Under the pieces are notes generated by a model that saw only the letters and a program-made list of their open reading frames with translations, was not told the origin of the DNA and did not search any database. A DNA stretch of 5,291 nt, taken from NCBI GenBank assembly GCA_003155465.1, contig PMCR01000152.1:1-5291 (forward strand), written 5' to 3'. This document shows, one piece after another, positions 1-5,291 of the stretch (within the stretch, counting starts at the first letter, position 1; each line of letters starts with the position of its first letter). The translations under genes and the position numbers were made by a program. This DNA comes from Myxococcales bacterium. Its GTDB lineage: Bacteria; Myxococcota; Polyangia; Fen-1088.

Positions 1-41
1 GCGGCGGTGCAACCCTCGCCGTTGCCAAGATTCTCTACTTT
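1..41 (-). other. Start of a second Cys-rich region, cut by window edge
   Basis: The last visible residues read KVENLGNGEGCTAA. They match the KVTKLGNGEGCTAA that opens the Cys-rich region of module B (3473-3432). Module A therefore probably continues into its own Cys-rich region, linker and MYXO-CTERM beyond the left edge. Confidence 0.75.
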
Positions 42-1910
42 GTACTCCCAGGTCTCACTCACGCCAGCACTCGCCCAATCGTATTGCCACGCGTTCGGGC
101 TGAACGGATCGCTCGGGAGGCCGCCGCCGAAGAGAACCATCACGCCACGCTGGCTGTCGAAAACCATGGTCGGCGAGGTGGCCATGGCTGGGCCAGTGGG
201 CAGGGTGCGCAGATACCAGGTCGCGTTCTTGCTATCCAGCTCCCAAGTCTTGAGGCTGGTGGTGGAGCCAGTCGAAACCGTCGCGTTCGTGGCCGTGACC
301 TGCCGGCGGCGCAGACTGTCGTAGGCAAAAACCGGGAAGGGCGGAAATTCGTCGCCGCTCGGCGAGATGCCGAAATCAACCACGTCGCCGCTGTCGCTAA
401 ATGCCCAGCCGGCGGTGACCGGATCCCACAACCAGAAGACGCTGTTGCTCGTGGAGCCGGCCCAAGTCGTCTCGCTCGCAAAGAAGAACGGCTTCTTCAG
501 GCCCTCGTCAAAGGTCAATACCCTACTGTCATACCAGCCCGCGCTCGAGTAGTCCGAATACGGCGTGACCGAGCCAACCGTAGGTGTACGGTTGGTCCAA
601 GTCATCTTTGCGCCATCCCACTCCCACACAAATGGGCTCGTCACAGAACCACGAATGGGCAATCTGGAAAATGGGTCGACACCGGTTTGTCCGCCAAAGA
701 TCAGCACCTTTGCGCGTCCCATGTCGGTGACCATGCCATGTGAGAAGAGACTGTCCGGGCTCGACGCGGGTGAGAGCTGGGTCCACTGGCGCGTGGCGCT
801 CTGCCATTCCCAAGTATCACTGAAGCCATACGTGCTGCTCGTCACGAGCTGGTCGTTGGTGCCACCGAACAATATGAGAGACTTGCGGGATGGGTCGTAG
901 GCCATCGCGGTGTCCGCCCGGGCAGATGGTTGCACGTCACTATTGATTTCCAGCCATGCCTTCCCGTCCCACTCCCACAGGTCGTTCAGCATCTGGGCCT
1001 TGCTGTCCTGACCGCCGAACACGTAGGTCTTGCCGGTGGCTGGATAGAAGGCCATGGCATGACGATAGCGCCCGCTCGGTGCGTCCCGCGGCCGCGTAGG
1101 GTTGCTAAAGGTTGCCTGGGGGGGGTCCAACTGCCACAGCTCTGCCGATGCGAGCGCGCTGTCGGTTGAATCCTGCCAAACCAGCCCTGCCACCAGATCG
1201 AGCCGTCCTTGTGAGGAGTCGGTGACCAGCGAGGCGTACAGGCGCCCGGCGGGCAAGTTGGGTTCGATGCCGGTGAGTCGCTGCGCCCACGTGCCCGCGA
1301 TCGGATCCCAGTCCCAAACGTCGGCCAGGGCGTTTTGGCCCAGGTCGCTGCTGGTCTTGCCGGTGTTGCTGTCCCCGCCGCCCACCAACACGATCAAACC
1401 GCGTACGGGGTCGTATGCCATGGCATGGCCGTAGCGCGCGCTCGGCTCGACCCCCGTGGCCTTGCGTTCGGTCCAGCCCGGTTTGGCCGGATCCCATTCC
1501 CAAGTGTCCTGCATGGGGGTGCCGTCCACATCGGCCTGATCCTTCTGCATTCCGCCGAACAAGACCGCGCGGCTGCGCTTGCTGTCCCAAACCATTGCGG
1601 AATCGTGTCGAGCACTGGGCGCCTTAGCTGGCGCGAGTTGAGCCCATGCCCCCGTGGCTGGATTCCACTCCCAGGTGTCAGCAAACGCCAGCGAAATGCC
1701 TATTCCGTTGTAGTCCGTGCCGGCGAGACCGCCGCCAAAGAGCAACACCTTGCCGGTGGATTTCTCGAACACCATGCTGTGCTGGCTGCGGCCGACAGGC
1801 GCCACGCTGGAGCCGGTGCGATCGGTGAAGGCGCCGCTTGTGGGATCCCATTCCCAGGTATCCGCGAGATCGTAGTTGGTGGTCGAACGCCCACCGAAGA
1901 TGACGAACTT
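1..1910. repeat. Large direct repeat, copy A (partner about 3432-5291)
   Basis: This stretch aligns with 3432-5291 along its whole length. The offset is 3432 bases at the left end, 3348 near 1567-1589, 3360 near 1763-1791 and 3381 at the right end. Changes in offset come from in-frame length differences in loops. Blocks such as 1763-1791 with 5123-5151 (29 bases) and 1567-1589 with 4915-4937 are identical. It reflects gene or domain duplication, not an insertion sequence: no terminal repeats or transposase are present. Confidence 0.9.
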
Positions 1911-4900
1911 GTTGCGGATCGAATCGAAGACCATGCCCGCACCGAAGCGCGCGATCGGCTTGCTTCCTGAAGGGGTGCGGTCGGTCCATGTGCTGGTCGC
2001 GGGATTCCACTCCCACAGATCCTGCAGCGCCTTGAGGCCCACGCCGGGGAGTCCACCGAACATGACCAGCACCTGGCGGGTCTCGTCAAAGACGGCCGAC
2101 TGCAGGTAACGCGGGGTCGGACCTGGTGTGGGAGGAACGTCGATGCGGGTCCAGGTTGCCGATTCGGTTGCAGGCACGCTGCCCAGGGCCGCATGCGAGG
2201 ACTCAAGCCGGGGGTCGTTGCCAGGAGGGGCCTCGGAGCAGACGGATAGCAGGAGCAGAGTCACTAGACCTAGAGGCCGGCCCGCGGATCGCGGATCGCG
2301 TGAGCGTGAGCGAGTTCGTGTGCGGTACGCGGGAGGCGGAAAGCGTCCCGTGGGCCGCCGCCCGCGCGAGTCGCCCACGCTATCCGCTGCACGCTGGTCG
2401 CTCACGCTACCGCTACCGCTCGCGCCCACGCTGGACTGACGCCGTCGCCGTCGCCGCCACAAGAGGGCGGCGCCGAGCAAAACGAAGGGCAGCCCGAGCG
2501 TGTCTGTGCCGGTCCGGCCCAGATCACAGCCGCAGCCCGAGTGGCCCAATCGCGCGGCGCTGCCCGCGTCGGGCACGCTCGCATCCTTTCCGCCACCCGT
2601 GCTGCCCGTGTCGGGCACGCTCGCATCCTTTCCGCCACCGGTGCTGCCCGTGTCGGACGGGAGTGCATCTCTTGCGCCGTCGGGACTGCCGCTGCTGCCG
2701 CCCAATCCACTACCTCCGTCTGCGCCGCCGTTGATGCTGCCGCCCGCGCCGCCCGTGCCGCTAGCACCGCCACGTCCGCCGATGATCGTGCCGCGGGAGC
2801 CGCCTGCACCTCCACTGTCACTGCCGCCAAATCCGCCCCATCCACCAGCGCCGCTCCCACCGAAGCCGCTTGCACCACCTGCGCCCGTGCCACCGGAACC
2901 GCCCGCGCCGGAATCGCCAATGTCGCTGGGACCGCATAAGAAGGGATCAGGGACAATGCACGCGCCCGCCCCATCACATTCCTCGCAGGGCCCACAGACG
3001 GTTCCCTGTTGCGGCGAATCGCACGCACCCACGCCATTGCAGGTTGCGCGGCAAATTCCGCTGCCCGAGCCGCATTCGTTCTCTGGATCGCTGCCCAAGG
3101 CATAGCCAAAGCATTTCCCCGCGAGATTGGCCTGGTTGCACGACACACATTTGCCATTGCATGCGCTCTCGCAGCACACGCCGTCCACACAGAAGCCCGA
3201 GGCACACACACTTGCGCTCGAACAGGTGACACCGTTTTTGCTCTTGCAACTGCCGCTGCCGTCGCACGCCTGGCCATCAGCGCAGCTTCCGGGGACTTCC
3301 GTACCCGCGGCCGCGGCTGTGCAGGTGCCTTCGTGGCCGGCGACGTTGCAGGATTGGCACGCCCCAGAACAGGCCGCGATTGAGCAACAGACACGCTCCA
3401 CGCAGAAACCCGAGGCGCAGGTCGACGCCGTGGCAGCGGTACACCCCTCGCCGTTACCGAGCTTCGTCACCTTGTATTCCCAAACGTCGCTCGCATCCCC
3501 GTCCCCAGAAGTGGGCGCACCACCGCAGAGCACCACCACGCCGCGCTGGCTGTCAAAGGCCATGGTTGCGTTGGTACGCGAGGCTATGCCAGGGGACAGG
3601 GCGCGTTGGTACAAAGTCGGACCTCTGCTATCCAACTCAAAGGTCTGGATATCCAAGTCTCCGTCCCGCCAGGCTGTCAGAACCTGCCGCCGGCGTAGGC
3701 TGTCGTAGGCCACCAGGGGGCCAACGGCAAACTCGATGCTGTCGCCAAGATCTCGACGCGCCCAACCGGCCGACATGGGATCCCACTCCCAGAAGACACT
3801 GCTACTGATACTGCCAGTGTCCGACTGCACGCCTGACTCATCGAAGACAAACAGCTTCTGGCGGCCCTCATCGAAACTCGCTATCGCGGGAGATTGTAGA
3901 GTCGGCGCATTGGTGACCGGAAGAGGCGTGCGGTTGGTCCACGTACCCTTGCTGCCATCCCACTCCCAGACCGCGCTCGACAGATCAGTATACCCTACGG
4001 GAACCGAATAGGTCGGGGAACCGGGGCTGATGCTGCCGCCGAAGAGCAGCACCTTGGCACGCACGGAATCCGTGGCCATGCCGTGAGAGCAGCGGAAATC
4101 TGGGTTCTGTGCGGGGTGAAGCTGGCTCCACTGGCGGGTGCTGCTGTTCCATTCCCAGGTGTCATTGAGCAAGCCGTATGAGCCCGCAACGCTGGAATAG
4201 GCGTTCGCGCCGCCGAACAGGATGAGGGACTTGCGGAATGGGTCATAGGCCATCGCCGCCGACCAGCGGGCAGGCGGGCGCACATCCGTTTGGACCTCGA
4301 CCCACGACGTCCCGTCCCACTCCCACAGGTCATCCAGCCCCGCATAGAGGTTGTCCCCCCAGGTCATCCCGCCGAAAATGTACATCTTCCCGGTAGCCGG
4401 GCAGAAGGCCATGGCGTGAGAATCGCGCCCACTCGGCCAGGGCTTCTGTGCCGGCGTGCGGTTGATGAAGGCTGCCGCGGCAGGATCCAAGTCCCAGATC
4501 TCCGCCGAGGGAGCTGAGCCGTACGCGGACTGGCCGTAGTCGTAGAAGAAGGCCAGGCCAGCCACCAAGTCGAGCAGGTTTCGCGTGGAGTCAGTGACGA
4601 GTGAGGCGTAGATGCGCATGGCAGGCAGGTTGGGCTCGCTGCCGGCAAGCCGCTCGGTCCATGCGGCCGTGGCCGGATCCCAGTCCCAAACGTCGGCCAG
4701 TCCGTTGCCGGTTGCGATGTCAAAACCGCCCGCCAGCACAATCAAGCCGCGGCCGGTGTCGTACGCCATACCGTGGCCGTAGCGCGCGCTCGGCTTGGGT
4801 CCCGTGGTCGTGCGGTTGGACCAGCCCGGGTTGGCTGGATCCCATTCCCAAATGTCCTGCTTGGGGATGGCAACCAGACCGGCCGGCGGAACTTCCAATC

Positions 4901-5291
4901 CGCCGAACAGGACAGCGCGGCTGCGCTTGCTGTCCCACACCATGGCCGAGTCGTACCGAGCACTGGGCGCGGTGGCAGGCACAAGTTTGCTCCACTTTCC
5001 CGTGGCGGGATCCCATTCCCAGGTGTCGTCAAAGGCGCTATCGACGCTGTTCCCATCGTCCCCGCCGTAGATGCTAAGACCAGCGACGGCGCCCCCGAAG
5101 AGCAGCATTTTGCCCGTGGACCTCTCGAACACCATGCTGTGCTGGCTGCGGGCGTCCGGTGGCGTACCCGCGCTGGTGCGGTCGGTGAAGTCGCCGCTTG
5201 CCGGATCCCATTCCCAGGTATCCTGGTAGTTGCTGTAGACGGGCAAGTTGTCTACCAAGGCCTGCGAGCGCCCACCGAAGATGACGAACTT
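1..5291 (-). CDS. Tandem kelch-repeat surface protein with internal MYXO-CTERM-like signal (one open frame, partial at both ends)
   Basis: One minus-strand frame (codon first bases at 5291, 5288 ... 5) is free of stops across the whole window, about 1763 codons. It reads in order: kelch module B, Cys-rich region, Gly/Ser linker, MYXO-CTERM-like anchor, Arg-rich spacer, hydrophobic signal-like segment, kelch module A, and the start of a second Cys-rich region. Kelch units follow the pattern DTWEWDPATGxW, then P-x-x-R-x-x-H-x-M-V-F-D, then a hydrophobic strand ending FGG. Such propellers usually bind proteins or carbohydrates; no enzymatic motif is visible. The product should be exported and surface-attached. 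Coding is nearly certain. Whether it is one polypeptide is not: a MYXO-CTERM normally ends a protein, so this may be two genes (about 5291-2439, and 1 to a GTG at 2264, 2378 or 2405) whose separating stop is missing. N-terminus and C-terminus lie outside the window. Confidence 0.9.
42..2159 (-). other. Kelch beta-propeller region, module A
   Basis: Twelve W-containing strands are seen, with first Trp codons at 2015, 1856, 1673, 1502, 1316, 1136, 977, 812, 626, 434, 245 and 50. A partial unit precedes them (SATWTRI, then AVFDETRQVLVMFGG). Units are spaced 53 to 65 residues apart. The framework is D-T/L-W-E-W-D/N-P-A-T-G-x-W, a loop with P-x-A-R, then H/G-x-M-V-F-D, then LLFGG or VLFGG. Units starting at 626 and 434 lack the FGG and are degenerate. 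About twelve blades would suit two six-bladed propellers, which is inference. No cysteine occurs between the one at 2240 and the one at 11. The region is the paralogue of module B. Confidence 0.93.
2238..2279 (-). other. Second hydrophobic, signal-peptide-like segment with Cys
   Basis: After the basic stretch the frame reads RPLGLVTLLLLSVC, followed by polar SEAPPGND. This is a short hydrophobic core of about 11 residues preceded by arginines and followed by Cys at 2240-2238. It resembles a lipoprotein signal peptide, but Val at -1 departs from the usual Gly/Ala/Ser of the lipobox. Starting at the GTG at 2264 would leave no positive n-region. If module A is a separate gene, an upstream GTG (2378 or 2405) therefore gives a better signal peptide, though with a long basic N-terminus. 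Confidence 0.55.
2265..2438 (-). other. Arg/Ser-rich junction between the two modules, no stop codon
   Basis: These 58 codons are where an intergenic region would be expected. In frame they give a low-complexity, strongly basic sequence with 12 arginines and 4 aspartates between 2438 and 2280, including RTRTRSRSRD. No ATG occurs in frame. GTG codons lie at 2429, 2405, 2378 and, at its end, 2264. None has a strong Shine-Dalgarno sequence; the best are gga ending 4 bases before 2378 and agg ending 4 bases before 2264. Shifting one base either way meets a stop quickly: TAG at 2415-2413 or TGA at 2404-2402. The DNA is repetitive, unlike the coding regions on either side. It could be a translated linker or a former intergenic spacer. 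No promoter or terminator was recognised in it. Confidence 0.6.
2303..2408. repeat. 11-bp inverted repeat, arms 2303-2313 and 2398-2408
   Basis: AGCGTGAGCGA at 2303-2313 is matched by its exact reverse complement at 2398-2408, with 84 bases between the arms. The same patch carries four copies of CACGCT (2376, 2390, 2403, 2427) and short direct repeats such as gcggatc (2290 area). The loop is too long for a standard terminator hairpin. The repeat sits precisely in the junction between the two modules. Confidence 0.7.
2439..2537 (-). other. MYXO-CTERM-like surface-sorting signal
   Basis: The segment reads GCGCDLG, a short polar stretch, a 14-residue hydrophobic run (2498-2457, LGLPFVLLGAALLW) and six arginines (2456-2439). 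Signature Gly-Cys, transmembrane helix and Arg cluster are the three parts of the MYXO-CTERM signal. That signal is known from myxobacterial surface proteins and is processed by a myxosortase-type intramembrane protease. It normally ends within a few residues of the arginines. Here the frame stays open past them. The helix is on the short side, and the double GC-GC is slightly unusual. Confidence 0.85.
2538..2933 (-). other. Gly/Ser-rich low-complexity linker
   Basis: These 132 codons are dominated by Gly, Ser, Ala and Thr (GAGGSGGTGAGGASG and similar). They lie between the Cys-rich region and the membrane anchor and carry no cysteine and few hydrophobic residues. The position and composition suit a flexible spacer that lifts the binding domains away from the cell surface. 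The last third changes to an Asp/Ser/Pro-containing 14-residue repeat. The resemblance to PE_PGRS-type Gly repeats is compositional only. Confidence 0.85.
2570..2653 (-). repeat. 42-bp tandem repeat (14 residues), two near-perfect copies
   Basis: Positions 2570-2611 and 2612-2653 are identical except at 2598/2640 (c versus g on the plus strand). They encode GGGKDASVPDTGST-type units, with a partial degenerate copy continuing to about 2556 (PDAGSA). The repeat stays in frame, so copy-number change would lengthen or shorten the stalk by 14 residues without breaking the protein. The near-identity suggests recent slippage duplication. Confidence 0.88.
2934..3443 (-). other. Cys-rich region with duplicated CASGFCV-type repeat
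   Basis: This stretch of 170 codons holds 30 cysteines, an even number consistent with full disulphide pairing in an exported protein. It contains two related units, 3419-3321 (33 residues) and 3206-3111 (32 residues). Both run CASGFCV, then VCC, then two or three Cys spaced by small residues, then CNxA and a final G-T/K-C. Between and after them lie CADGQACDGSGSCK and CNGVGACD-type Cys/Gly motifs. Similar Cys-rich stretches are frequent in myxobacterial secreted proteins, where they sit between a globular region and a C-terminal anchor. The exact family was not searched. The likely role is a rigid stalk or a small binding domain just outside the membrane. Confidence 0.85.
3111..3419 (-). repeat. 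Two Cys-rich repeat units (3419-3321 and 3206-3111)
   Basis: The two units share CASGFCV, VCC, and a CxxC-N-x-A ... G-x-C ending. The first has ERVCCSIAACSGACQSC and the second DGVCCESACNGKCVSC, a difference of one residue in length. The copies match well in protein but differ at many codon positions, for example tct/tgt choices, so the duplication is old rather than recent. Confidence 0.8.
3432..5291. repeat. Large direct repeat, copy B (partner 1-1910)
   Basis: This is the second copy of the module duplication. It is about 50 bases shorter over the aligned span and is cut by the right edge of the window at the codon matching 1910. The Cys-rich and linker part of copy B (3431-2439) has no partner inside the window, because the equivalent part of copy A lies off the left edge. 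Confidence 0.9.
3474..5291 (-). other. Kelch beta-propeller region, module B (N-terminus beyond window)
   Basis: The window opens inside a KFVIFGG strand. W-E-W (or W-D-W, W-D-L, W-E-Y) strands then follow with their first Trp codon at 5216, 5021, 4850, 4688, 4496, 4325, 4157, 3968, 3791 and 3482. At 3641 the aligned position is Phe (TFELD). Most units end in a hydrophobic run plus Gly-Gly, for example MLLFGG, AVLFGG and LILFGG. Spacing of 50 to 65 residues per unit fits the long-bladed kelch repeats of bacterial exported proteins. The two or three units before 3482 are degenerate, lacking a clear FGG. By comparison with module A, roughly 118 codons from its GTG at 2264, or somewhat more, would be missing to the right. 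Three cysteines (4403, 4091, 3527) sit where module A has Tyr, a non-Cys residue and Phe. The kelch fold assignment is firm; the ligand is unknown. Confidence 0.93.

Follow-up and report, generated by a model that had tools for sequence, protein, structure and literature searches.

The DNA analysed here, hereafter the window, is a stretch of 5,291 nucleotides from a Myxococcales bacterium of the class Polyangia. On its minus strand a single reading frame runs from 5291 to 3 (feature 3–5291), with 1763 codons and both ends open in the ORF listing, and the frame is part of a longer gene. The full protein, P0001 (2252 residues, encoded on a 41-kb contig), is identical over 100% of the window query; it begins with a lipoprotein-type signal, MKLRRSAVAALLLLATC, and finishes in a second MYXO-CTERM-like tail. 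Read from its sequence, the gene is one continuous frame with two kelch modules, each preceded by a lipoprotein-type signal and followed by a MYXO-CTERM-like signal.

In the window, all features lie on the minus strand. The kelch repeats of module 1, the N-terminus of which lies beyond the window, occupy 3459–5291 (Pfam kelch families, our kelch profile A1 and P0001) and are followed by a cysteine-rich region at 2928–3458, recognized in the translation, with many Cys columns that are invariant in an alignment of 13 proteins (A2). Translation and coordinates then place a Gly/Ser/Asp-rich stalk at 2540–2927; at 2559–2639 it holds two 39-nt copies, 97% alike and spaced by 42 nt, that encode SVPDTGSTGGGKDA-type repeats. 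The internal MYXO-CTERM-like signal (2439–2537) is separated by an Arg-rich and presumably cytoplasmic linker of 55 codons (2274–2438, defined by a repeat match and the frames of the repeat copies) from a type II signal-like hydrophobic stretch ending in LSVC (2238–2273, Cys codon 2240–2238; defined by coordinates, a table of lipoboxes and an invariant Cys of A2). Module 2 fills 3–2237 with a spacer, a kelch region and the start of a cysteine-rich region that continues beyond the window (A1, Pfam and AlphaFold). The window ORF matches PF24681, a kelch beta-propeller profile, with 335 bits. The AlphaFold model of module 2 (pLDDT 79.1, pTM 0.66) is all-beta, and Foldseek matches it to the kelch beta-propeller fold, with the LZTR1 kelch domain as the best hit (E 2.2e-20) and kelch domains of LZTR1 and KLHDC2/3 among the top PDB matches. 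A consensus scan of 2150–2560 revealed no intrinsic terminator or promoter, Rfam gave no match in the window at gathering scores, and RNA folding of 2250–2450 equals that of shuffled sequences (z −0.03).

A sequence-only reading of this DNA had described a MYXO-CTERM-like signal inside an open frame (GCGC at 2537–2526, a hydrophobic run at 2498–2457 and six arginines at 2456–2439), and the description is borne out. The Cys signature, hydrophobic helix and Arg cluster are all present at 2537–2439, and TIGR03901, which has a cut-off of 20 bits, scores 25.9 on fragment 2415–2633, 23.5 on 2067–2576 and, slightly below the cut-off, 19.4 on the whole 1763-residue ORF. The position is not the extreme C-terminus, as more than 1100 residues of P0001 remain after the signal. 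The open codons reported downstream of the arginines are likewise real: 66 of them lead from the last Arg to the lipobox-like Cys at 2240–2238, and the two stops that had been named as candidates, TAG 2415–2413 and TGA 2404–2402, are present but belong to the two remaining frames. In genomes of the class, 30 MYXO-CTERM-like places were opened; 24 of them reach a stop no more than 16 codons past the arginines, and the other six comprise three fused kelch genes and three members of the second family described below. The 30 places are the best matches to a profile built from the fused kelch junctions (MYXO-CTERM plus internal signal), so the sample is biased towards internal MYXO-CTERMs; overall, 127 of 317 class genomes contain matches to this profile, and most of these matches are ordinary MYXO-CTERMs.

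How much the missing stop means depends on the relatives. Dinucleotide shuffling leaves the window linker open by chance in 21% of cases, or in 7% if the frame must match too, so the window alone would not exclude chance openness. That much of the earlier assessment stands, and it is the homologues that rule chance out. Among the 616 relatives obtained from 7987 scored candidates, the best 120 include at least 41 two-module proteins of 1911–2386 residues, the window's own among them. A second search, with the alignment of these double proteins as the query, returned the same 41 and no additional two-module protein of more than 1900 residues among the best 120 of 1118 relatives. Some of the 41 start late or finish in another frame (for example P0007, P0038 and P0040), and therefore not every double is complete with both end signals. 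Because protein searches favour long proteins through their length filter and score, DNA found with single-module queries was examined as well. This genome scan yielded 39 loci, 31 of them (L001–L031) at a tblastn E of 4e-47 or lower, and the stop-to-stop frames at the loci were read with the kelch profile A1. In the assemblies, 10 of 11 junctions at which a module 1 is followed by a module 2 form one continuous frame (L002, L003, L004, with unresolved bases in its linker, L005, L006, L007 twice, L020, L022 and L023). The sole break is at L001, where a stop (SG*) at the junction is followed by a new ATG with a ribosome site. By contrast, both boundaries at which a module 2 is followed by a module 1 (L002 and L007) contain stops. 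Since the former junctions are continuous and the latter boundaries are stopped, the pair is the unit of the gene. L007 also carries, at about 7387–8211, a third kelch module that is broken by an in-frame stop and resumes in another frame, either a broken copy or an assembly fault.

These comparisons bear directly on the explanations that had been offered for the window. A one-base sequencing or assembly indel, or a recent loss of a stop, confined to this record could draw on the GC-rich repetitive tract at 2440–2460; against it, the frame is continuous in at least 40 other long proteins, from ENA, JGI and NCBI sources, and in the named assemblies, many of which have different linkers. We consider this account ruled out for practical purposes and assign it next to no probability, whereas the true fusion that had been suggested alongside it is upheld by the same doubles and by 10 of the 11 assembly junctions. 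The proposed comparison with related genomes thus gave a divided answer: nearly all junctions are continuous, and a homologue with a clear stop does exist, in L001, which belongs to a small nested subclade. The lipoprotein-type signal just past the linker and the interspersed-repeat nature of the linker are additions to the sequence-only reading.

A second alternative treats the modules as two separately translated genes, with a linker that is open by chance or through relaxed constraint. The 21% chance for the window linker is compatible with it, and the L001 subclade does have separate genes. For the ten continuous assembly linkers, shuffling gives probabilities of being open of 0.20 to 0.73 each, and the product of these probabilities, each divided by three, is 7e-10, a guide only since the junctions are related and not independent and the L004 linker has unresolved bases. 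The window itself was selected for being open. Direct inspection of the DNA speaks more plainly. At all 11 continuous junctions read in DNA, the window included, the 34 codons that precede the internal Cys are free of ATG, and none of the junctions has a ribosome site correctly spaced to a start; L002 and L006 do have a purine-rich site, yet the nearest following start is more than 20 bases away from it. Ten of these 11 junctions contain GTG or TTG codons, and in L022 the 34 codons include no ATG, GTG or TTG. Free-standing genes of the family, in comparison, have in five of five cases an ATG 16 codons before the lipobox Cys with a GGAGA-type site closely upstream (the second gene of L001, the third of L002, L003, L006 and the third of L007; the sample excludes L004, L005 and the first gene of L007). 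An internal start of module 2 was accordingly rejected for the DNA-read junctions, none of which has an ATG with a spaced ribosome site. At the protein level only, a Met lies within 25 residues of the internal Cys in 7 of 40 parsed doubles, 12 residues before it in P0002, P0003, P0009 and P0010, which favours separate translation to some extent, and an internal start is possible in these proteins. Module 2 is nevertheless under purifying selection: dN/dS between the window and L020 is 0.36 for the module 1 kelch region and 0.28 for module 2, and it is 0.20 for module 2 between the fused L002 and the unfused L001. Where module 2 is conserved yet lacks a start of its own, reading through from module 1 is the best explanation, and separate translation of two genes appears very improbable. 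Single proteins of the module 2 type (P0041, P0047, P0067, P0074 and P0080) may be broken pairs.

The ancestry of the modules is consistent with an old pairing. In a FastTree phylogeny of 223 modules, 46 of 47 module 2 sequences fall in one 64-row branch (support 98) that forms part of a clade of 123 rows (support 100). The module 1 groups do not belong to this branch, and their order is largely mirrored in it when compared by eye. L001, P0069, P0070, P0072 and P0073 form one small subclade nested among the fused genes, and the module 2 of the four proteins starts like that of L001, with MKLRNS. Since module 2 has its own start in this subclade, the fusion is not indispensable. The fused or unfused label needs four changes over 63 rows selected by hand (50 fused and 13 unfused, 8 of the latter being outgroup singles), and one of the four is presumably P0050. 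We read the tree as an old fusion that was later split in one subclade; repeated fusion is a possible alternative. P0050, the only module 2 sequence outside the 64-row branch, comes from a distant two-module protein (about 44% identity), and in the tree its two modules group closest to each other. It is perhaps a separate origin of the same layout, an unsure assignment given the long branches. The kelch family as a whole is found in 10 of 289 class genomes at an E of 1e-60, all of them the ten relative assemblies already identified, and in 1 of 377 phylum genomes at 1e-100, with at most two candidates scored per genome in both searches.

The linker of the window is a copy of a palindromic interspersed repeat of about 160 bases (about 2434–2274) that is open in frame. 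The repeat is matched in nine of the ten relative assemblies, for example 51 times in G002 and 47 times in G003. Of 60 longer copies taken from outside the junctions, 59 were scored (L146 was dropped as its match was too short); their length modulo 3 is 0 in 23, 1 in 17 and 2 in 19. The forward frames of these copies are open in 27% and the reverse frames in 52%, and usually one characteristic forward frame is open. The window, L020, L022 and L023 use this same frame in their junction copies; at the second L007 junction the repeat is inverted and likewise open. All five repeat-bearing junctions are therefore open and in frame, the window having been chosen for its openness and the other four not. 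Between L020 and L023 the linkers have a dS of 0.05, and the modules have dS values of 0.57 and 0.50; because linker dS is far below that of the modules, the linkers seem to have been inserted or exchanged recently. Across the 40 parsed doubles the linker spans 3–107 residues (median 22) and is net positive in every case, with 383 Lys/Arg against 98 Asp/Glu. Other linkers have recurrent motifs of their own, HHREHRDHR or HHRDHGDHR in P0026, P0033, P0036 and P0040, PLPDGER in P0006 and P0014, and LTPALSRGER in P0045, which presumably resemble translations of other intergenic repeat families that are in frame too. Palindromic elements retained in frame within genes are known from Rickettsia.

The segment that follows the linker resembles an export signal. 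An internal C.C motif, a hydrophobic run, a linker and a lipobox-like internal Cys occur in this order in at least 41 doubles, 40 of which were parsed by script and one of which, the misparsed P0017, was read by eye; in the 13 aligned doubles of A2, both C.C cysteines and the internal lipobox Cys are invariant. In the 40 parsed proteins the hydrophobic stretch of the internal signal has a mean hydropathy of 1.70–3.35 and is preceded by basic residues. The lipobox consensus has Gly, Ala or Ser before the Cys. The window, with LSVC, is off this consensus in having Val at that place, and across the 40 doubles the position ahead of the internal Cys is filled by Thr in 23, by Ala or Ser in 14, by Asn in 2 and by Val in the window alone. 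ATC is a frequent ending of their N-terminal signals as well, so the lineage may accept an off-consensus lipobox. From these sequence features we infer that the internal Cys of the kelch doubles would be lipidated. An uncut chain is the main competing idea: neither internal site would be cleaved, and a permanent two-helix hairpin in the membrane would display two linked propellers. It accommodates the continuity of the frame as well as the off-consensus residue in 26 of 40 internal kelch lipoboxes. It leaves unexplained why the lipobox-like Cys is kept in 41 of 41 listed doubles and why the Cys motif of the MYXO-CTERM, needless in a plain hairpin, is kept as well.

Further evidence comes from a second family of long proteins in which an internal MYXO-CTERM-like motif is again followed by an internal lipoprotein-type signal (L226–L235 and L240–L269). 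The N-terminal domain of these proteins has some 720 residues and the C-terminal domain some 450. Pfam gave no match in the five members scanned, and similarity to the kelch profile is at most weak: of the 14 ORFs tested, two scored 12.8 and 11.5 bits against a profile that itself includes the MYXO-CTERM. When one member served as the query, matches at 1e-20 came from 78 of the 144 class genomes sampled, and many of the matches contain both halves in one frame of about 1200–1550 residues. In 22 of 30 returned loci a script found the MYXO-CTERM-like motif, a basic stretch, a second hydrophobic stretch and a Cys in one frame, which in L250, L255 and L256 is shortened on one side. A similar arrangement was seen by eye in L258, L259, L260, L262, L265 and L269, and the stretches of L261 and L266 that were read did not cover the junction. 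An ATG occurs 13–24 codons before the Cys at 3 of 18 of these junctions and a ribosome-like site with a start at 1 of 18. The halves are in separate frames in G060, and G020, G029 and G046 have additional frames of 809–828 residues that match only the N-terminal half. At all 22 script-found junctions Gly, Ala or Ser directly precedes the internal Cys, which counts against an uncut chain, and we regard that idea as unlikely.

The second family also brings in an intermediate scheme, in which only the MYXO-CTERM is cut; module 1 would be released and lipid-anchored, and module 2 would be held by its uncut signal in the manner of lipo-invert, a putative C-terminal anchoring domain (NCBIfam NF058595). 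This model, with a cut-off of 37 bits, matches second-family members below the cut-off (17–18 bits in two), and the two above-cut-off NF058595 places that were read have, like the kelch junctions, a helix, a basic loop, a hydrophobic stretch and a lipobox-like Cys. Unlike the window, both end in a short tail and have no MYXO-CTERM Cys motif. Window fragment 2067–2576 and two kelch junction fragments gave no listed match to NF058595 at E up to 10, a search in which the HMMER filters drop most weak matches. A single cut at the MYXO-CTERM is, on balance, quite improbable.

The reading that we prefer, and hold to be probable, is that the gene encodes a surface polyprotein from which a membrane hairpin is excised by myxosortase and lipoprotein signal peptidase (LspA). 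The candidate enzymes are present in the relatives: the myxosortase core, NF040914 (Mrt_core), is above its cut-off in nine of the ten relative assemblies and in none of 14 control genomes, eight of which match it below the cut-off, and LspA (PF01252) is present in nine of the ten. Among eight CPBP proteins scanned, three exceed the Mrt_core cut-off, and these three are under the cut-offs of the MrtX, MrtC and MrtP models. The membrane topology and both cuts are proposed from the known or suggested action of these enzyme and signal families. The first signal would export module 1, and the MYXO-CTERM helix would halt in the inner membrane, its arginines remaining on the cytoplasmic side together with the linker; the second signal would then cross the membrane again, so that module 2 is exported too. 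Myxosortase would cut after the lipidated Cys of the MYXO-CTERM, and LspA would cut the internal signal ahead of its lipidated Cys. Once the hairpin between the cuts is discarded, the products would be equal amounts of two kelch proteins, each with a lipid anchor of its own. In the lineage of the window, a palindromic repeat of the interspersed type lies in the presumably cytoplasmic linker, leaves the frame intact and would supply the linker's basic residues.

The closest systems in print share parts of this arrangement. TraA and its myxosortase MrtX, as described in the sections of Guo, Haft and Wall 2025 (PMC11980579) that concern them, have in common with the window protein the Cys motif, the helix, the Arg cluster, an N-terminal signal and, in its relatives, the myxosortase core; the window protein differs in that its signal is internal, with another export-type signal and a further module coming after it. 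The same paper, in the parts dealing with internal MYXO-CTERMs, proposes that the portion N-terminal to such a signal is processed. Its example, MXAN_5598 of Myxococcus xanthus, is described with an internal MYXO-CTERM and proposed to be a gene fusion whose N-terminal part would be processed and surface-anchored; it differs from the window protein in its C-terminal outer-membrane barrel with OmpA domains, and the passages on it mention no internal lipoprotein signal (PMC11980579). In a table of vesicle proteins elsewhere, MXAN_5598 is entered as an OmpA domain protein (PMC4158809). For sorting tags of the C-terminal type that work in mid-protein, Guo et al. cite, in the section concerned, Navarre and Schneewind 1994 and Abdul Halim 2017 (PMC11980579). 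These internal sortase and archaeosortase signals are served by enzymes different from those of the window's system.

Internal MYXO-CTERM motifs are thus already published as rare cases. What is new is a MYXO-CTERM joined to an internal lipoprotein-type signal, the conservation of this pair, the fact that it recurs in an unrelated family, and a repeat carried in frame; within the library and terms searched, no published case of a MYXO-CTERM next to an internal lipoprotein signal was found. FbcH of Bradyrhizobium is a known bacterial example of a precursor that carries an export signal in its interior and is split into two proteins, cytochrome b and c1; it has no sorting tag and is an unrelated protein. 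To our knowledge, bacterial polyproteins cut by two different membrane peptidases have rarely been described.

Beyond this gene, the chances appear evenly balanced that Polyangia-type myxobacteria possess a general class of surface polyproteins, in which a MYXO-CTERM joined tail to head with a lipoprotein signal would form a self-contained hairpin; this hairpin would be removed by a myxosortase cut on one side and an LspA cut on the other, would have arisen in at least two unrelated protein families and would tolerate mobile repeats in its cytoplasmic loop. The retention of an interspersed repeat in frame within a conserved gene is a point of interest in its own right, and the case cautions against splitting such fused genes as annotation errors. 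If the polyprotein reading is true, a C-terminal sorting signal next to a lipoprotein signal can release a protein from within a longer chain, which would explain how paired surface modules could be produced equally and would provide a simple construct for testing myxosortase and LspA on internal sites.
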